Positions 36,968-46,266 of a stretch of DNA of 64,000 nucleotides are shown one piece after another. Below the pieces are notes generated by a model. It made no database searches and was not told the origin of the DNA. It was given only the letters and a program-made list of their open reading frames with translations. Source of the DNA: Ettlia oleoabundans (lineage: Eukaryota > Chlorophyta > Chlorophyceae > Chlamydomonadales). The stretch spans positions 1,513 through 65,512 of the forward strand of contig JAAMXP010001782.1 in the NCBI GenBank assembly GCA_019693395.1, given 5' to 3'. Every line of letters starts with the position of its first letter. Position 1 is the stretch's first letter. A program made the position numbers and the translations under genes.

Positions 36968-39538
36968 ATGTCGAAGGAGGTAATCACCCTCCAGTTCGGC
37001 AATTTCGCCAACTATGTCGGGGCGCACTATTGGAACTTTCAGGCAAGTCATCAAACGGTGCGCGGAAGAGCGCTGCTCACAAAGCATGTTGCCGTGCCTC
37101 TTGGTGTCCCGCCTGTTCACGCCCGCCAGCCCACTCCGGTTGCGTTGGAGGTTGCACACAAGCACAATGCCTGCATCTTTTCTGCAGGACGAGTTACTAG
37201 GGCTGCAAGAGGAGCAGCAGGGCACCCGTGGTCCTGCCTGCCAGATAGACAGCGATGTTCTGTACCGTGAGGGGGAGACGCTGCAAGGGGAGGGCACCTA
37301 CACGCCCCGCCTGGTGCTGTGGGACCTGAGCGGGGCGCTGGGCGGCGTCAGCACACGTGGTTCCCTCTATCGTGACCCTGACCACCATAGTAGTGCTGGC
37401 ACGGTGTCCACCTGGTCAGGAGGCCAGGAGGTGCATCGCGCTGCACAGGTGTCAAAGAGCCGCTTTGCCAAGGAACTGGAGGATGAGGCGGAAGGGGAGG
37501 GCGGCCAGGAGAATGACATCGATGCAGCAGGGGCAGGAGAGGGAGACGCGACAGTAGCCCCCAGCGCTCTGCAGGAGGCGGCCAGGCAGCTGGATGGCGG
37601 AGGTGCGGGTTTAGGCAGCAGCAGCGGCGGCGGCGGAGTGCGATTTTTCACAGACTATTTGAAGGCTCACCTGCACCCCCGCAGCGTGCATCAGCTGGCA
37701 AGGGCATGGCATGGACTCACGCCATTCCACAGCTGGGGTGACGGCGGGGAGCACTGGCGCAGCCAGGAGCAGCGGGAGGAAATGATGGAGCGCATCAGGT
37801 GGGAGGCATGCACGGGTGTCGGGGTGGCTCAACCCTTGTATGTGTTATGCGTTTGTTAATGGTGGTAGGCACAGAAAGAAGGTGGCAGTTGGCAGCATGC
37901 TGCCCATCACCCGAGCCCAAGCATCGAGCACCGCTTTGTGTACCACTGCTGCCTGCACTCGCCCACCTAGTGCAGGTTTTTTGCCGAGGAGAGTGACCAC
38001 CTGCAGGGGTTCCAGGTGCTGGCTGATGACGCCTCGGGATGGGGGCAGCTGGTGGGACACGTTCTGCAGGTGGGTGCACTCATGTTCTGCCGGCTGTGCC
38101 ATGAGGTCGACTTTCAGCACAAGCAAGAAGCTTGAGCTTCTGTGTTTGGTGGTTTGGTGGTAAACGGTTTTGGCTGTCGAAGCAGGCAGGCAATCACTCG
38201 CAGACCGGCTATGATGTCTGGCCTAGATATACTGCTGTGTGCTGGGTGTGAGGTGCTGGTTATCCTATGGCTTGGCTGTTGCGGTGCCACAATGCAGGAA
38301 GTGCGAGATGAGTACGGTGGCAGCCGCCCCATCATGCTGTTCGCCCTGCGCCCCCAAGCGCCCGCTGTTCCCGCTCAGCACCAGGGGGACCAGGCGGAGC
38401 GGCGGCGCCGGCAGCTGAACGAGGGGCTCAGCCTGTCCCTGCTGGCGCAGCACTGCAGCACGTACACTGTGGTGTCGCTGCCAGCAGCGCTGGGAACGCT
38501 GCCGCTGCTGAGGTGGCAGCCAGGCAGCTACTACCATGCCAGTGCTGTGTGCGCCGCAGCACTGGACACTGCCACGCTTCCATACCGCCTGGCAGCTGGG
38601 GAGGGGCCGCATGCGCCCATAGGTAAGCCTTCTTCCAGCTTGGTTGTAAACTGTCGACCCACTACAAGCTGCCCTGGCATGAATGCTGGTCTGCTGGGGT
38701 TATAGCATGGCGCTGCTGTGTCTGTTGGTAACGCTGTACTACTATTTTGGCTGGCTGGCTGCCTCTGTGCGCAACACTCTGTGCCTGCCGCCCTGCAGGA
38801 CGCTTGGACATGTGGGGGCTTAGCCAGCTGCTCACAGCTCAGCACAGCACACCGCTTGCAGCGCTGTCCATGGCACTGCCGTGCCCCGCCCTCCCCGCCG
38901 ACCCGCAGCGGCAACAGCAGCAGGTGGATGTCCGCCTGCGGCAGAGTGCCAGTGACGCCGTGGCTTTCGCATCAGAGGCACTGGGCAGGGGCAGCGTTGG
39001 CAGTGGCAGTACCAGCAGCAGCCCTTTCACCACCCAATGGATGGCCAGTCTCACGCCTGGCATTCCATCAGTGGGCGATGGGGGGCGCTTTGCAGAGGCG
39101 GTGGTGCTGAGAGGACCCCGGTCTTCTGGCCTGCCATTACATCTAAGTGCCGCATCAGACGCGCTGGATGCGGCTTTGGCAGAGGAGCGGCAGCGGTGCG
39201 TGCGACATCGAACAATTGTGGCGCAACCGCTGCCGGTGCCGCTCCCCTTCCCCCACATATTTGCAACTGCTTTGTCCCAACATGGTGACCTTCTTCCGGG
39301 CAGCAAGCTGGGTCCGGGCTCCCAGGACCTTGCCTCCTGTGCGGCGCTGACGCGGCTGGGCACAACGTCAGCCTTTAATATCGTGGTGGGGGCAGTGCGG
39401 CGCCAGTTCCTTGCTGCCACCAGCACTACGCAGGGCCAAGCCAATCTGGAGAGCTGGGGGCTTGGACAGCAAGAAATGCTTGATGTGGATGAGTACCTTA
39501 ACCAACTAGGGCATGCATACGATGAAGGGGAAGGCTGA
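36968..39538 (+). CDS. Misato/DML1-like tubulin-related protein
   Basis: Misato proteins carry a split tubulin-like fold and act in mitochondrial distribution and cell division. The start MSKEVITLQFGNFANYVGAHYW is the family's hallmark N-terminus. It continues DELLGLQEEQ, YREGETLQGEGTYTPRLVLWD, RFFTDYLKAHLHPRSVHQL, FHSWGDGG, GFQVLADDASGWGQLVGHVL and RPIMLFALRP, and ends with a region containing TSAFNIVVGAVRRQFL. Five coding exons. An acidic Gly/Ser-rich insert (about 37470-37640) is species-specific. The start is the first ATG and gives the conserved block at residue 4. Confidence 0.92.
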
Positions 39539-39887: not shown

Positions 39888-42578
39888 ATGAATGAACTTG
39901 AGCGAAACCACTGCCAGTTTTGCGGGTCAGGGCAGTTTTTTCCTTTGCAAAATTGCGTTTGCTCATTGGGCCCGCCAGCTGCGATGTACAGGGTGGAGTC
40001 CCCAACCACCGGCTGCTCTGCGCCGCATCCCTCCTGGAGCCTGGGTACGCGCAGCATCATTACCAAGCGAGCGGCTTTGCCTTCAGAAAGGTCGCGCCTC
40101 CGCTTAGCTCACTGCCTGGTGGCGGCAGCAGCGGCAGGCCGGGTCGGCAACCAGGTGAGTGAGATTTCGTGCAACAGGTATTTTGGGACTCTCTATGTTT
40201 GGGCTTCCAGTGCCTGAAACATGGCATCCCTTTGTAAACCATTTCCGTTTTTATCTACGCTGCCATCACCCCATTCCATCGCTATTTGCAGAATGCATCA
40301 AGGGGCATCGTCAATGCCAACGAGGCACTGAGAGCCGAGGTTCAGCAGCGTGTAGCAGCAGCAAAAACACGCCTTCTGTTGGTGCAGCAACGCCTGCAGC
40401 ACCAGATGGATGCGGCAGCCGCAGTGGACAGCATGGTTGAGGAGGGGGAGGGCGGTGCTACCTTTCGATCAGCAGACACACTGCTTCAGCAGGTGTTGGC
40501 TGCTGCATCCGACAGTGAGGAGTTTGCATCTGGGGATGAGGCAGCTGCCGCCACGGCAATGGCTGCCAGGGTGGCTGCTCAGACAGCACGCGCGAATCAG
40601 GCAGCAGCCCAATCTGCCTTGGCAGCAGCCCGGGAGGCGGAAAGGCAGCGCCAAATGCTGGCCGCTCTGCAGCAGCAGCTGGATTTGGTTCGTGTTGTGG
40701 AAGAAAAGGGCTTCTCCACTGAACCACCTGTCAAACAGGAGAAGCAGCGCAAGGGTTTTGACCCACTCAGCATACTGCTGGCGCCCGCAGCGCCGCTGAT
40801 TGCAGCGCTGGCGGGCGCACGCAGTCACAGCCAGCAGGCAGCGCCCGCCAAGCGCAACAAATATGATATGCTGCTTTATTTGCTGGCGGCAGCAGCAGCA
40901 GCACCTGGTACGCAGGTGCGCGGGATGCGTGTCACGCTGGCTTCAGCATTCAGAAGCTTCTTAGCTGCGCATTTGCAACATGTCTGCTTGAGCACGCTGC
41001 TGTATTGTTGCACTGCCCATGGCGGTTGTGCCTGAGGCTGGTCTTCACTGGTTCATCATGTCTCTGGCCACTCCACCGTGCAGCAAGATAGCCGATAAGA
41101 CCCCATGCGTACCCTGCTGGCGGCTGCGCCGCAGTCTGGCGTCCCACGCTACGACTTTGCTCGCAGTCTGGTGAGCTGTTTCTGCTGCTGGTGGCACACA
41201 TGAACCGCGATATGGTGTCATCAGTTATCCCACCTTCCCATAGCGGCCGGCGTGTTCATGTGTGCGCAGCTGAGGTGTCGCTTTGTTGCATCTTGCTCTC
41301 TTCGCCGTGCCCATGCTGCGTCCGCGGTAACAGCACGGGTGGCATCTTTCAGCCTGCTGTTCACGTCAGCCTTGACGCNNNNNNNNNNNNNNNNNNNNNN
41401 NNNNNNNNNNNCCATGTTTGACATGGCTTACGGACTGCTGCAGGTCTGCTACCGAATTGCAGCCTGATGGACCTGCATGCATGCATGCATGCATGCATGC
41501 ATGCGCCCCCCACATTCATTTGCCCTGCATTGACCTGCACCAGTTCCTGCTGCCTGGTGGCACACCTGCCATGCGCCTTTTCACCAATTCCACCACACGT
41601 TCACGCCCCAGCCATCTTGGGAGGCAGAACTTCAGCCCGTGACATCACCTGCTGACGCTGCTGGTGCCGGTGCTGGTGCTGTGCAGAGTGTTCGTGAGGG
41701 CAGGGTGGTGCCCTCTGGCGCCAGCAAGTACGATCCCGTGTGGGCGCTGCTACGTGAAGCAACGCTGCTGGAGGTGAGAGCTGCGCAGCTGGGTGGAGTT
41801 GGGTGTGTGGAAACTGTATGTTGCCGAATTGAGGCAAGCGCTGCGCAGCATTTTTCTGATTGCAGCTGAGCTGAAACTTGCTAATGCTCACGGAGAGTTG
41901 TGACAACAGCTGTTTGTGTGAAGCGCACGTCATAGTCACGACCACCAGCTGCCTCGCAGCTGCCTGCTGACCCAGTGACCCGCCCGCAAATGTGTGCCAT
42001 GCACCCTGTTTGTGCAGGAGTGGGGCGGCAGCGACAAGTATGACCCGTGGTCTGAGCTGTCTGACTGGGCCCCAGTGCTTGCTGGATCCCCCGCATTCCT
42101 GGGCCTGCGCTACGACCCCTGGGCTGACCTGGCGACAGCTGCACGACGGGGCGCAGCTGCCTCCCCTCGGTCTTCCAAGTATGACATGGTGCCGGCTCTG
42201 CTGAGCACTTTGGTGGCGGCTGCCCAGGGTGGCAGGCCCCGCAGCCGCTATGATCCCGCTGCAGAGCTGCTGGCTCTTGGGGCATCGCCAGACTGGCAGG
42301 GCCCCACCGGCAGCAGCCGCTACTGCCCCCTGGCCGCTGCCCTGGATACAGCAGCTGGGTGGGAGGTTCCTTGTGGCAGCAGCCGCTACTGCCCCGCTGC
42401 AGCTTTGTTGGATTCGGAGCCTCCCAGGCTGGTGGGCAGCCCACGCTGGGACCCGCTCGGCTGGCTGCTGGATGGCTGGGCAGCCGGGAGCAACGGCTGG
42501 GAGCCTGCCAGCAACACAAGTAATGGCGACATGAGCAGCCACCGCAGCAGCAACACACACACTCCCGCCTATTCTTGA
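39888..42578 (+). CDS. Unrecognised protein of tandem [KR]-Y-D-P-x3-L-L repeats, probably organelle-targeted
   Basis: I know no family for this. Possible starts are 39888 (MNELERNHCQF) or 39984 (MYRVESPTTG); the latter begins a Ser/Arg/Ala-rich, acid-poor stretch like a chloroplast transit peptide. After an intron comes an Ala/Gln-rich coiled coil (AEVQQRVAAAKTRLLLVQQR and onward), then about thirteen copies of a short motif: GFDPLSILL, NKYDMLLYLL, a DPMRTLL-like copy, PRYDFARSL, MFDMAYGLL, SKYDPVWALL, DKYDPWSEL, LRYDPWADL, SKYDMVPALL, SRYDPAAELL, SRYCPLAAAL, SRYCPAAALL and PRWDPLGWLL. The last seven lie in one exon (42018-42578) with tyrosines (or Trp) 20-24 residues apart, separated by Gly/Pro/Ser linkers. 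The joins around 40910-41110 and at the 33-base N gap are unresolved, so copies may be missing. It ends at 42578, convergent with ceramide kinase. Confidence 0.65.
41379..41411. other. Assembly gap (33 N) inside the repeat gene
   Basis: The run of N directly precedes an exon fragment reading MFDMAYGLLQ, so coding sequence is missing or truncated here. Confidence 0.98.
41473..41504. repeat. (TGCA)n self-complementary microsatellite
   Basis: About seven TGCA units lie in the intron directly behind the exon after the gap. The tract can fold on itself, which may help explain the nearby assembly break. Confidence 0.85.
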
Positions 42579-43382
42579 GTATCACGTGCATGACCTGGAC
42601 TGCTGCCAGCAGCCTATGCCAAGCTGACTGTAGGCAAGGGATCTCCCAGCAATCGACAAAACCTGAAAACTCCGCATTCAATTATCTTTTTCCCGACACT
42701 CTCATCGCCAACTACTCAGGCATTGACTCCAATCTACCGATTGCCACCACACTGCCAAGGCCCCTTTTCTTCCTGACGACTGGTAGCCCAAGCACCAAGA
42801 GTCACACGCCCCCACGCCCGCGTGCCCCCACCCCCCACCCAAAACACGCGCGCGCGCGCGCGCGCACACACACACACACACACGTGAGGGCTGTGCACGC
42901 AACGCCATCAGAACCCTGGATGGATAGATTGTGCCCTCCTACTACCTGTCAACTTGAAAATCCCACCATCGCTGTGTTTAGCTGCCCTATGCGCATTTGC
43001 ATTGTATTTATGTGTTGAAGATCGGGCTGAGCCCATTGCCATCTCTGTTGCCACTCCATTAAACGAACCCATTCCACGACTGTTGTGCCCTGCTACAACG
43101 CTAACCATCCCCCTCGATTCCTAGACCTGCTGGCTGGTTAAGCCCTGTGCCAACCCTGTTACCTGTTGCGCTTCCCCTACCCAAATCTCTTCAATTTATT
43201 TGCCCAGTCAAGTAACTTTTCTAGAGCTGCTCTGTAATATGACAAAATAATGCCAGGGTTTGCAACTTGAAGCAAAGGCACAAGTTTAGCGGCGTCAGCC
43301 TCAACGGGGCAATGCTGACTCACGTTCCTCCACCCTACCTGCAACCATAAGCAGCAGCCTGGCGACTGCAAGGAAACTGGCC
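42579..43382. other. Convergent intergenic region with a (CG)n(CA)n tract
   Basis: An 804-base region between the Y-D-P repeat gene and ceramide kinase. At about 42845-42884 it contains (CG)9-10 followed by (CA)9, an alternating purine-pyrimidine tract of the kind that forms Z-DNA. No gene was seen. Confidence 0.6.
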
Positions 43383-46266
43383 TCACTCCACCCCGCGTGC
43401 AAACACGCGCAGCAGGCCGTTGTGCACCTCTGCTGCCATGTGCATGTCACCGCCCCTGGAGCACTCGCCGTCCAGGTTCCATGCGCTCAGTGCGCTGCCG
43501 TCGCCTGGCTGCACCTGCACTGCCACTGCATCCAGCACCTCCACGTACGGCAGCTGCCCTGGGGCGCAACCGCTGCGGCTCATGCTCAGCAGGAAGCGCA
43601 GGTACTGCGGCAACAAAAACGATGAGGGGGCTGGGCAGGAGGAGAGGGCATTGATAGTGCAGTGTGCGGCGTAAACGCCCCCTGTATAGCGCCCGGCTTG
43701 CTTGGTGCTGGCTCCACAGCAAGGTCAAGCTGGCCCCACAACTATGCTACAACCCCACAGCCCAACACCTGACCAGCCAACCACGCACCCAGCCAACCCA
43801 GCATCCACACCACGGCTTGCACCCACCTGCAGCGGGGAGCACTTGCGGACCAGTACCAGCTTGAGGCGGCCGTCGGCCAGGTGTGCGTGCCGTGCCATGC
43901 CTCTGCGCGTCTTGTCTGAGCGGCAGGGCATGACTATGAGCATGATGGAGGCAAAGGTGCCTTCTACCTCCTGCCACTGCTCACCCTCACCACCCTGACG
44001 CTCAGCCGCGCCCGCTGCATGCTGCAGGAAGTGGTGTTGCGACACTGATGGTGACGATGACGATGGCCCTGCTCCAGAAGTTGGATGAAGATCGGGGCCG
44101 CTGCTGGGTTCTGATGTTGCTGTTGAAGCAGGGTGAGGCAGCAAGTGCGCCTCACTGGTTCCTGTGCAGCTCAAACTGCTGCTCCCCCTTCCTGCTATTG
44201 CTGTCGAACCAGAGGCAGTTGGGGAGGCCAAAGTGGAGCCAGCTGGCGTGTGCGGTGCTGCCATCTGCTGCTGGCTCCATCGGCGACAATGCATGAACGA
44301 GGCGGTGCGGCAGATGAAGCAGCCGGCACCACACACCGCATGCGGCTGCTTGCTCAGGGCCTGCCCCACCTCTCCCTCCAAGTAGCGAACACAGGCGGGG
44401 TAGGCGCGGCTGCAATTCATGTGGAGACAGCCCGGGTGGTAGTGTGAGGTGCGGTGGGAGGTTGTAGCCTAGGATGGAAGCAAGTTCAAAGTACCGTGCA
44501 GGTCGTTACAGATAGCAGAGGTGCAGGGGTCTGCAACCTCCTGCTGGCGCCCGCACGCCATTGCTGGCATGCGCATTACTGCTCGACTAAGTGCATGTGC
44601 TTACAGCTTATTGCTTTGGTGTGCGCACCTGGCCAATAGCTTGGCGGTGCCCACCAGGTCGTACCGCAGGGGTCCCATCCAGCGGTACTGCTCGGCTGCC
44701 AGCGTCACGTCAGCCAGGAAGCCGTAGGCTGCGCAAGTCAGAGGAGCGGATTGGCCAGGCACGAGGTGGGCATGTGGCAGATTGAGCAGCAGGCACGGCT
44801 GGCAGCTCATTGGCAGTGGCAGGCCCCGGGGAGGTCGGGGTGGGCAGCAAAGTTTAACAGAGAAAGCTGAGATATGCACTGTAAGAAGCAACCGTGAAGC
44901 AGCAGCAGACTGGGGGCTGCACACCTGCAATGCACGAGGCAAACTTGGTGCCTGATGCGCCATCCACCCTCAGAACATCCAGGGGAGTGGAGTCGCCCAG
45001 GCAGCAGTGCATGGCGGCCACAAAGGCGCTGCGTGTGCCGTGCAGCGTACACGCCACCGCGTCTGTGCTGCCAGCTGGGATGTGCGCGAGGCGCAGAGCG
45101 GCCAGCGCGGCTGTCAGCTCAGCTGCGCCAGCGGCGGCTGCCGCCCCGCGGGCCTGCAGCAGGCCGTTCAACGCCTCGTGGAAAATGCCGTCGCCTCCCA
45201 CGCACACAATGCCTGTGCAAGGGGGCCAACATTGAGGTGATGCGAAAGCAGGGCAGCTGGGCAACTGCAGCTGTGCAGCCCCCCAGCGAGCCACCAATGT
45301 AGCAAGCAAGAGCCCTGCCTGATTGCCGCCACAACCCCGCCCACTTTACAGCCCGCTCACCGTCAATGCTTGCCACCTGCTCATCCGTCAGCCGCGCCAC
45401 CAGTTCGCACGCATGCCCCGCACGGTGTGTCTCCCATACCGCTGCCTCGATGCCCGCTGCCGCAAATGTGGGCGCCACAATGCAACGGTACAGCCTCCTG
45501 GCCTGGCGATAGCCGGAGTTGGGGTTGAGCAGCACCAGCAAACTCCTGCTTGGACCAGAGAGAGGCATGAAGCGGCGCAGAGATTGCAACGTCAATTATG
45601 ATTACGTATTCGAGTGCACAGATGCAATATTCAAGCAAGCGATACCATTTGTAGCAAGCATAGGCAAGAAGTGGTGTTATACGGCACATATCGGCATGGC
45701 CACTGGCATGCAGGGCACGCACTTTGGCCTGCCGGCTGACGCCGCTTCAATGCCTGCGTTGATAGCTGACGCCCAGTCCTGTATCACCTCCTCCTCTGCT
45801 GCCTCCATTACCACTGTGCGGGGTGCCCACTCGCAGCGCCGTCGTGGCGTACGGCGGAAGGTGAACATCTCCAGGCGGTGCAGGACTGGCGGTGCACGGA
45901 GGCAGGGCAGCCAGGTGCGGGTGCGGTGTGCAGCCTGCCGTGCCGACAGCATCTCATCAAAGGGCACTGGACACAGCGAAGTGCAGCAATGTTGACAGGA
46001 AAAAGCCTCTCTGTGGCTCAAGTGTGGTGGCAATTAATGTATGTGAGCAGCACACTATTGCCCAGAAAGTGAGTGACCTGGCAGAGACTGCGTCCCAGCA
46101 TTGTGTAGCACGCCCAACCCTAACTAGCCATCAAGCGTTCACCAGACTCAGTCGATCCATGGCTGCTCCATTCTATGCCAGTGGCCCCCAGGCGCACCAG
46201 CGCTGGCCGACCATCAACCATAATCTGCTGCGGCAACCGCTCGGGGCCCGCCTGCCCTCGCTCCAT
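43383..46266 (-). CDS. CERK: Ceramide kinase
   Basis: A lipid kinase that makes ceramide-1-phosphate. The N-terminal PH-like region (QQIMVDGRPALVRLGATGIEW, VPFDEMLSARQ, LEMFTFRRTPRRRCEW) leads through AGRPKSLLVLLNPNSGYRQ into the diacylglycerol-kinase catalytic domain with the ATP loop IVCVGGDGIFHEALNGLL and AHIPAGSTDAVA. It continues with RWMGPLRYDLVGTAK, the CxxxCxxC signature CGAGCFIC characteristic of ceramide kinases, LVLVRKCSPLQYLRFLLSM, and the end FARGVE. About eight exons. A Ser/Thr/Pro-rich insert of roughly 80 residues follows the cysteine motif. The start at 46266 (MERGQAGPERL) is the first ATG of the first recognisable exon; an upstream exon is possible. It is divergent from the ABCG gene. 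Confidence 0.88.

Follow-up and report, generated by a model that had tools for sequence, protein, structure and literature searches.

Repeat gene and motif array

The DNA analysed here, hereafter the window, is a single stretch of 64,000 nucleotides, in which a gene built around a recurring short motif occupies positions 39888-42578 of the forward strand. Its upstream neighbour, on the same strand, appears to be a Misato/tubulin-like gene (36984-39538; Misat_Tub_SegII at E 7.7e-17, Tubulin_3 weaker). The downstream neighbour, on the reverse strand (43728-44468), displays a weak ceramide-kinase C-terminal match of 30.3 bits, below the cut-off of 33.5; this domain scan covered 10 of the 59 window open frames of at least 180 amino acids. 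Neither Rfam nor tRNA scanning gave a match in the window. The repeat gene is modelled with six exons, the borders of which were placed from splice signals and phase:

39888-40154, forward strand: exon 1 (model), N-terminal, transit-peptide-like, with donor GT at 40155, phase 0
40292-40915, forward strand: exon 2 (208 aa), an alanine-rich predicted coiled coil followed by repeats 1 and 2; 59 and 58% identical to homologs P0026 and P0027
40754-40780, forward strand: repeat 1, GFDPLSILL, in exon 2
40859-40885, forward strand: repeat 2, KYDMLLYLL, in exon 2
41084-41170, forward strand: exon 3, 87 bases, both borders in phase 0, with repeats 3 and 4
41093-41119, forward strand: repeat 3, in exon 3
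41096-41098, forward strand: in-frame TAA in repeat 3, relatives being aromatic at the equivalent place
41147-41170, forward strand: repeat 4, in exon 3
41379-41411, no strand: run of 33 Ns, the only N-run of the window, masking the 5' part of exon 4
41414-41443, forward strand: readable 3' portion of exon 4, holding repeat 5, MFDMAYGLL (41414-41440), with donor GT at 41444
41687-41773, forward strand: exon 5, 87 bases, phase 0, with repeat 6, KYDPVWALL (41726-41752)
42018-42578, forward strand: exon 6, stop TGA included, with repeats 7-13; 63-64% identical to the paralog
42036, 42108, 42177, 42246, 42318, 42384 and 42444, forward strand: first bases of repeats 7-13, in exon 6

Either the first ATG or an internal one (MYRVES...) may start translation in exon 1, whose N-terminus, judged by eye, is plausibly transit-like. 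In exon 2, a hydrophobic stretch, PLSILLAPAAPLIAALAGA, lies 3' of repeat 1. The paralog exon that matches exon 4 reads LRGMAAADAGGNSPFDMAHGLLQ. All readable junctions are in phase 0, and no damage is seen at the splice sites or within the 186 last-exon codons. The joining of these exons, already assumed in the initial annotation, gains support at the level of sequence from the phase-0 junctions and from the paralog, described below: since the latter keeps its motif exons in the same order, the window exons are probably spliced as modelled. Simple-repeat runs of CATG (41478-41505) and of GC/AC (42850-42885) lie in an intron and 3' of the gene, respectively.

The motif, roughly [KR]-[YFW]-[DC]-[PM]-x3-L-L, occupies 13 positions. 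Seven of them belong to the last exon, where they start at residues 7, 31, 54, 77, 101, 123 and 143 of 186, that is with spacings of 24, 23, 23, 24, 22 and 20 residues; in most intact arrays the spacing is 18-27 residues. The joined exons 2-6 contain 7 strict motifs, whereas 20,000 shuffles of the same letters average 0.00075 and reach 1 at most; for the loose motif the count is 11, and the shuffles average 0.022 with no more than 2. Across the six frames of the window, 11 of the 16 loose matches fall in the repeat gene. The initial claim of some thirteen copies, seven of them in one exon at 20-24 residue spacing, is thus borne out, as shuffled sequences almost never match it. The array it described is present, but several copies are imperfect: repeat 1 starts with G-F-D-P, repeat 4 with R-Y-D-F and repeat 5 with M-F-D-M, repeats 7 and 8 have no second leucine, repeat 11 has no first leucine, and repeat 3 holds the in-frame TAA, which the initial annotation does not mention. 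The repeats are acidic, with a pI of 4.91 for the window last exon and of 4.29-5.04 for the repeat parts of four homologs.

To note, Cys replaces Asp in two motifs (RYCP, 42318-42410), and the two residues are also swapped among relatives at the equivalent repeat; redox control and plain helix capping are both possible. Genome-wide, Y-D-P-x3-L-L yields 26 exact matches against 54 for a reversed-pattern control, i.e. no enrichment; on these counts, the motif was rejected as a plastid sticker in wide use across the genome. The only genes with more than one such match are the window gene (2) and its paralog (4).

Homologs, paralog and in-frame stop

Three protein-collection searches identified at least 26 homologous proteins (4 + 20 + 2), a lower bound as each search scored about 8000 candidates; some of the 26 are pieces of a single gene (P0004 with P0005, and P0011 with P0027, the contigs of each pair being equal in length). 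The homolog from a named organism is P0002 of Micractinium sp. CCAP 211/92, 1040 amino acids long. The protein has relatives, and the earlier statement that it matches no known family is supported: nothing significant came from Pfam, NCBIfam or PDB, where the best matches are weak and under the cut-offs. None of the 30 pattern matches in viral contigs, nor of the 82 in prokaryote genomes, is a confirmed relative. A literature search, with subscription papers and supplements outside its reach, found no paper on this family.

Conservation is concentrated in the motifs. In a 12-row alignment, identity to the window row amounts to 0.72, 0.86, 0.85, 0.80, 0.82 and 0.74 at the motif letters, whereas the three x positions reach 0.38-0.57 and the linkers 0.46. 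Among 137 homolog motif instances, K or R is found in 108 and the second leucine in 95, both at positions left free in the search pattern. One stretch, YC-x-x-AAALDAAAGW-x-x-P-x-G, is conserved throughout, across motif and linker, so that not every linker is free.

Queried with the last exon, the genome that contains the window (32.9 Mb, 1230 contigs) yields the window itself and one further locus, on contig C803, which is 64% identical and has its motif exons ordered as in the window gene. Beyond the repeat gene, no similarity was found between the window DNA and 20 kb of C803. A third match to the Micractinium N-terminus, on C950, is weak and interrupted by two stops, and was disregarded. 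The window/C803 comparison gives dN/dS values of 0.30-0.32 for the last exon (158 codons), 0.28 for exon 5 (29 codons) and 0.115 for exon 3 (28 codons), all of them rough since the last-exon dS is about 1; the last-exon value counts in favour of the scaffold reading set out below, and that of the exon 2 tail, 0.53, against it. Units of the form LPGKM-[ST]-x-D make up an additional array 5' of the C803 motif repeats (L003 5091-5370); two such units occur in P0003, and P0001 and P0004 carry LAGVLEARDE-like units instead.

Besides the window and C803, the 22-row last-exon tree includes 20 of the 26 homologs (P0003, P0004, P0005, P0015, P0026 and P0027 being left out), and 5 of its 19 inner branches are well supported. 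The window groups with P0007, P0011 and P0016 at 100/99, separate from C803, whose group with P0001 and P0006 reaches only 83/81. By the former value, the split between the two copies is old and the window type has been retained in other sources. A division of the homologs according to C-terminal letters, FA or WS, was abandoned, as the tree disagrees with it.

The in-frame stop is directly visible in the exon 3 readout, Q-D-S-R-stop-D-P-M-R-T-L-L. All seven relatives that show exon 3 have an aromatic residue at the TAA place, Tyr in C803, P0001, P0002, P0003, P0004 and P0024 and Phe in P0027, with P0001 and P0004 close to each other. Read literally, the TAA makes the window protein stop after two repeats, and the window copy may be damaged and no longer yield the full protein. 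Exon 3 being 87 bases long with phase 0 at both ends, its skipping would preserve the frame.

Predicted helices, putative membrane form and proposed scaffold architecture

The model of the last exon (12 rows) is of low confidence (mean pLDDT 49, pTM 0.25). It exhibits seven short predicted helices, at residues 12, 34, 57, 80, 104, 126 and 146, without tertiary fold; in six cases the helix begins precisely at the motif P/M, which fits Asp/Cys as the helix cap. A fold search of the PDB with the same low-confidence model returned nothing below E 0.001. For exon 2, a model from 3 sequences, also of low confidence (mean pLDDT 61), predicts long helices at 2-50, 56-74 and 81-138, consistent with the coiled coil proposed initially but short of proof. 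The earlier sticker-and-spacer description is supported, as the predicted motif helices lack a fold and the motifs are conserved above the linkers. The last-exon spacing of 20-24 residues falls within the 20-120 residues of linker-type scaffolds in general; the short helices in a chain without fold are predicted at a mean pLDDT of 49.

Plastid targeting, which the initial annotation had raised for the window protein, is likely for its Micractinium relative. P0002 displays a transit-like start and a hydrophobic stretch ending in AWA-K, as lumen signals do, then LIDESTGAAQPWLYSRGVWNQKQYGTIHRYYTDR, and after it a hydrophobic span-like segment followed by basic residues. Kyte-Doolittle hydropathy over 19 residues, for which the membrane-span threshold is 1.6, reaches 2.00 at residue 80 (signal) and 2.07 at residue 257 (span). 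In C803, lumen-type signal and span-like elements are found in separate exons and are less clear than in P0002, the span scoring 1.36 over 19 residues, below threshold, and 1.95 over 17. The span of P0004 scores 1.66 over 19 residues and that of P0003 1.58, the latter passing only over 17. P0026 and P0027, homologs of the window form, also show the coil without a span within the same exon, in a comparison confined to the coil exon. The window gene has no match to the signal and span elements of P0002 and C803, and its exon 1 is devoid of a hydrophobic span; the stretch after repeat 1, with a hydropathy of 1.82, might touch membranes. If the signal and span of the P0002 type are correct, the repeats would lie in the stroma; the plastid location and the topology of the family are both deduced from such sequence features.

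A further stretch, IDESTGAAQxWLYSRGxWNQxQYGxIH, is shared by C803 (L003 3792-3878) and residues 129-163 of P0002, with 82% identity over 28 residues. It has no Pfam match in P0002 and is possibly a small lumenal domain.

The reading that we favour, at a probability of about 0.6, is that of a real conserved family that matches none in the libraries and is built like a multivalent plastid scaffold. This green-algal family would consist of an alanine-rich coiled coil followed by about 13 (S)-[KR]-[YFW]-[DC]-[PM]-x3-L-L motifs on flexible Gly/Pro/Ser/Ala linkers. Each motif would cap and start one short helix, with Asp or Cys as the cap and Pro next, a role suggested by the predicted models, and the helix would display the aromatic residue and the leucine pair. 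Through many weak contacts, the motifs could bind a many-sited partner or other copies of the protein, forming a multivalent scaffold in the stroma. An anchored form, full in Micractinium and partial in C803, would combine a lumen-type signal and a span-like segment and, held in the thylakoid, extend its repeats into the stroma; without signal and span, the window form would be soluble or loosely membrane-bound.

Two other readings bear on what the repeats, or this copy of them, amount to. The repeats may pack together as an ordinary helical-repeat domain rather than act as stickers, as their regular helix-loop units of about 22 residues and the AAALDAAAGW stretch conserved over motif and linker would suggest; this is improbable given the poorly conserved linkers, the absence of a PDB fold match at the threshold used and the low pTM and pLDDT, although with 12 aligned rows the model is weak either way. 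A stronger contender, at somewhat less than even odds, holds that the window copy is degenerating: a recent working scaffold that the exon 3 stop has turned into a pseudogene or into a truncated two-repeat protein, its job being done by the paralog. The TAA at a place where seven of seven relatives are aromatic argues for it. Yet this TAA is the sole lesion in the readable exons, and skipping exon 3 is frame-neutral. The dN/dS values of 0.12-0.32 in exons 3, 5 and 6 also speak against decay, though they are averaged over a long common history, and the stop may be an assembly error; the genome search gave no second copy of the window locus.

Candidate partners in the plastid

The scaffold reading leaves room for several partners, and the initial annotation had guessed at a Rubisco linker in the manner of EPYC1. 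That guess fares poorly, since the four published Rubisco-binding motif patterns have no match in the 34 family rows, the repeats are acidic and Y-D-P-x3-L-L is not enriched genome-wide. EPYC1 is a basic chain, and the Chlamydomonas Rubisco-binding motif, [DN]W[RK]xx[LIVA], is found in 0 of the 34 rows. The repeat protein resembles EPYC1 of Chlamydomonas (PMC10473226) in its predicted short helical stickers on spacers, and differs from it in having no sequence match and acidic repeats. Its lack of enrichment also sets Y-D-P-x3-L-L apart from the shared Rubisco-binding motif described for Chlamydomonas (PMC10473226).

In Chlorella sorokiniana, moreover, a Rubisco linker, CsLinker, has already been demonstrated (PMC11570498, as for the CsLinker data below). 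Its six helices are about 66 residues apart, with contacts through F173, L174/M240, R176 and K177, and it works on some plant Rubiscos. As far as predicted for the repeat protein, both combine repeated short helices in a disordered chain with a transit peptide, in an alga with a matching RbcL; the repeat family differs in its roughly 13 motifs 18-27 residues apart, its acidity and its putative partial membrane anchoring. A CsLinker-type pattern, F[LM]x[RK][KR], built from the described contacts and not from the CsLinker sequence, matches 0 of the 34 rows, and a CsLinker-like tandem search of the genome, with a pattern guessed from the residues named in PMC11570498, gave 0 matches. The genome RbcL (contig C1228) shows no difference over 475 aligned residues from the chain of PDB 8Q04/8Q05, the C. 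sorokiniana Rubisco (PMC11570498); the host would be a Chlorella or closely related to one. The CsLinker-site residues E51, D86, I87 and Y97 are all present in it, which is silent on binding by the repeat protein itself.

The diatom linker PYCO1 (Phaeodactylum; PMC10288592) is a prion-like chain acting on red-type Rubisco, with KWSPRGGS and GTGYNP stickers and a large-subunit sticker EWGSMN. Repeated aromatic stickers and a superficial K/R-aromatic-x-P likeness are shared with it (PMC10288592), while KWSP and EWGSMN occur in 0 of the 34 rows. The window last exon begins with EWG (42018-42026), as do almost all relatives in which the exon start is visible, and [ED]WG alone stands at this place in pieces of 14 of the 34 rows; the likeness to EWGSMN is probably due to chance. 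Identity of the repeat protein as CsLinker, EPYC1 or PYCO1 was rejected, as their motifs are absent. Among membrane-linked proteins, RBMP1, RBMP2 and Cre03.g172700 are proposed as membrane-to-matrix tethers in Chlamydomonas (PMC10473226). The family would be akin to the Chlamydomonas pyrenoid membrane proteins RBMP1, RBMP2 and MITH1/SAGA1 in a putative membrane link with a proposed matrix-thylakoid tie, but is set apart from them by other motifs and domains, as these are described in PMC10473226 and PMC11649565.

The partner to test first would be the pyrenoid Rubisco matrix or its linker, a guess with the odds clearly against it. In its explicit form, the anchored protein would tie the Rubisco matrix, or CsLinker, to the thylakoid crossing the pyrenoid, the window form being a soluble partner in the matrix. 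The predicted topology of P0002 is that needed for a membrane-to-matrix tether, comparable to RBMP1, RBMP2 and Cre03.g172700 (PMC10473226); the RbcL, including the four CsLinker-site residues, matches that of C. sorokiniana; a single thylakoid disc crosses the pyrenoid in several Chlorella species (PMC13159521); and a spacing of 20-24 residues sits at the low end of the 20-120 range used in linker finding (PMC11570498). Such a tether is nevertheless rather unlikely, given the absence of the known Rubisco-binding motifs in 34 rows, the acidic repeats (pI 4.3-5.0) and the motif not being enriched in other genes. In addition, of 13 repeat-protein candidates in C. sorokiniana, CsLinker alone was among the 360 RbcL-enriched proteins (PMC11570498), sets that may or may not include the repeat family. 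The acidic repeats without Rubisco-binding motifs, together with a stroma-facing topology that says nothing on the partner, would equally suit a scaffold that clusters light-harvesting complexes, starch enzymes, nucleoids or plastoglobules on the thylakoid surface that faces the stroma. Nothing positive points to one of these named partners, and no domain of such systems was found, which leaves this alternative doubtful as well, if a little less so.

At its widest, the scaffold reading would imply a pyrenoid assembly in the Chlorella lineage unrelated to that of Chlamydomonas, in which one family provides both thylakoid tether and soluble matrix scaffold, using a new aromatic-Asp-Pro helix sticker and determining how the membrane that supplies CO2 is wetted by the Rubisco condensate; we regard this as improbable at present. 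If the stroma-facing sticker arrays of a conserved Chlorella-lineage family hold, they would represent a second, independent solution. Without Rubisco as the partner, a regular, conserved and undescribed plastid scaffold would still merit naming.
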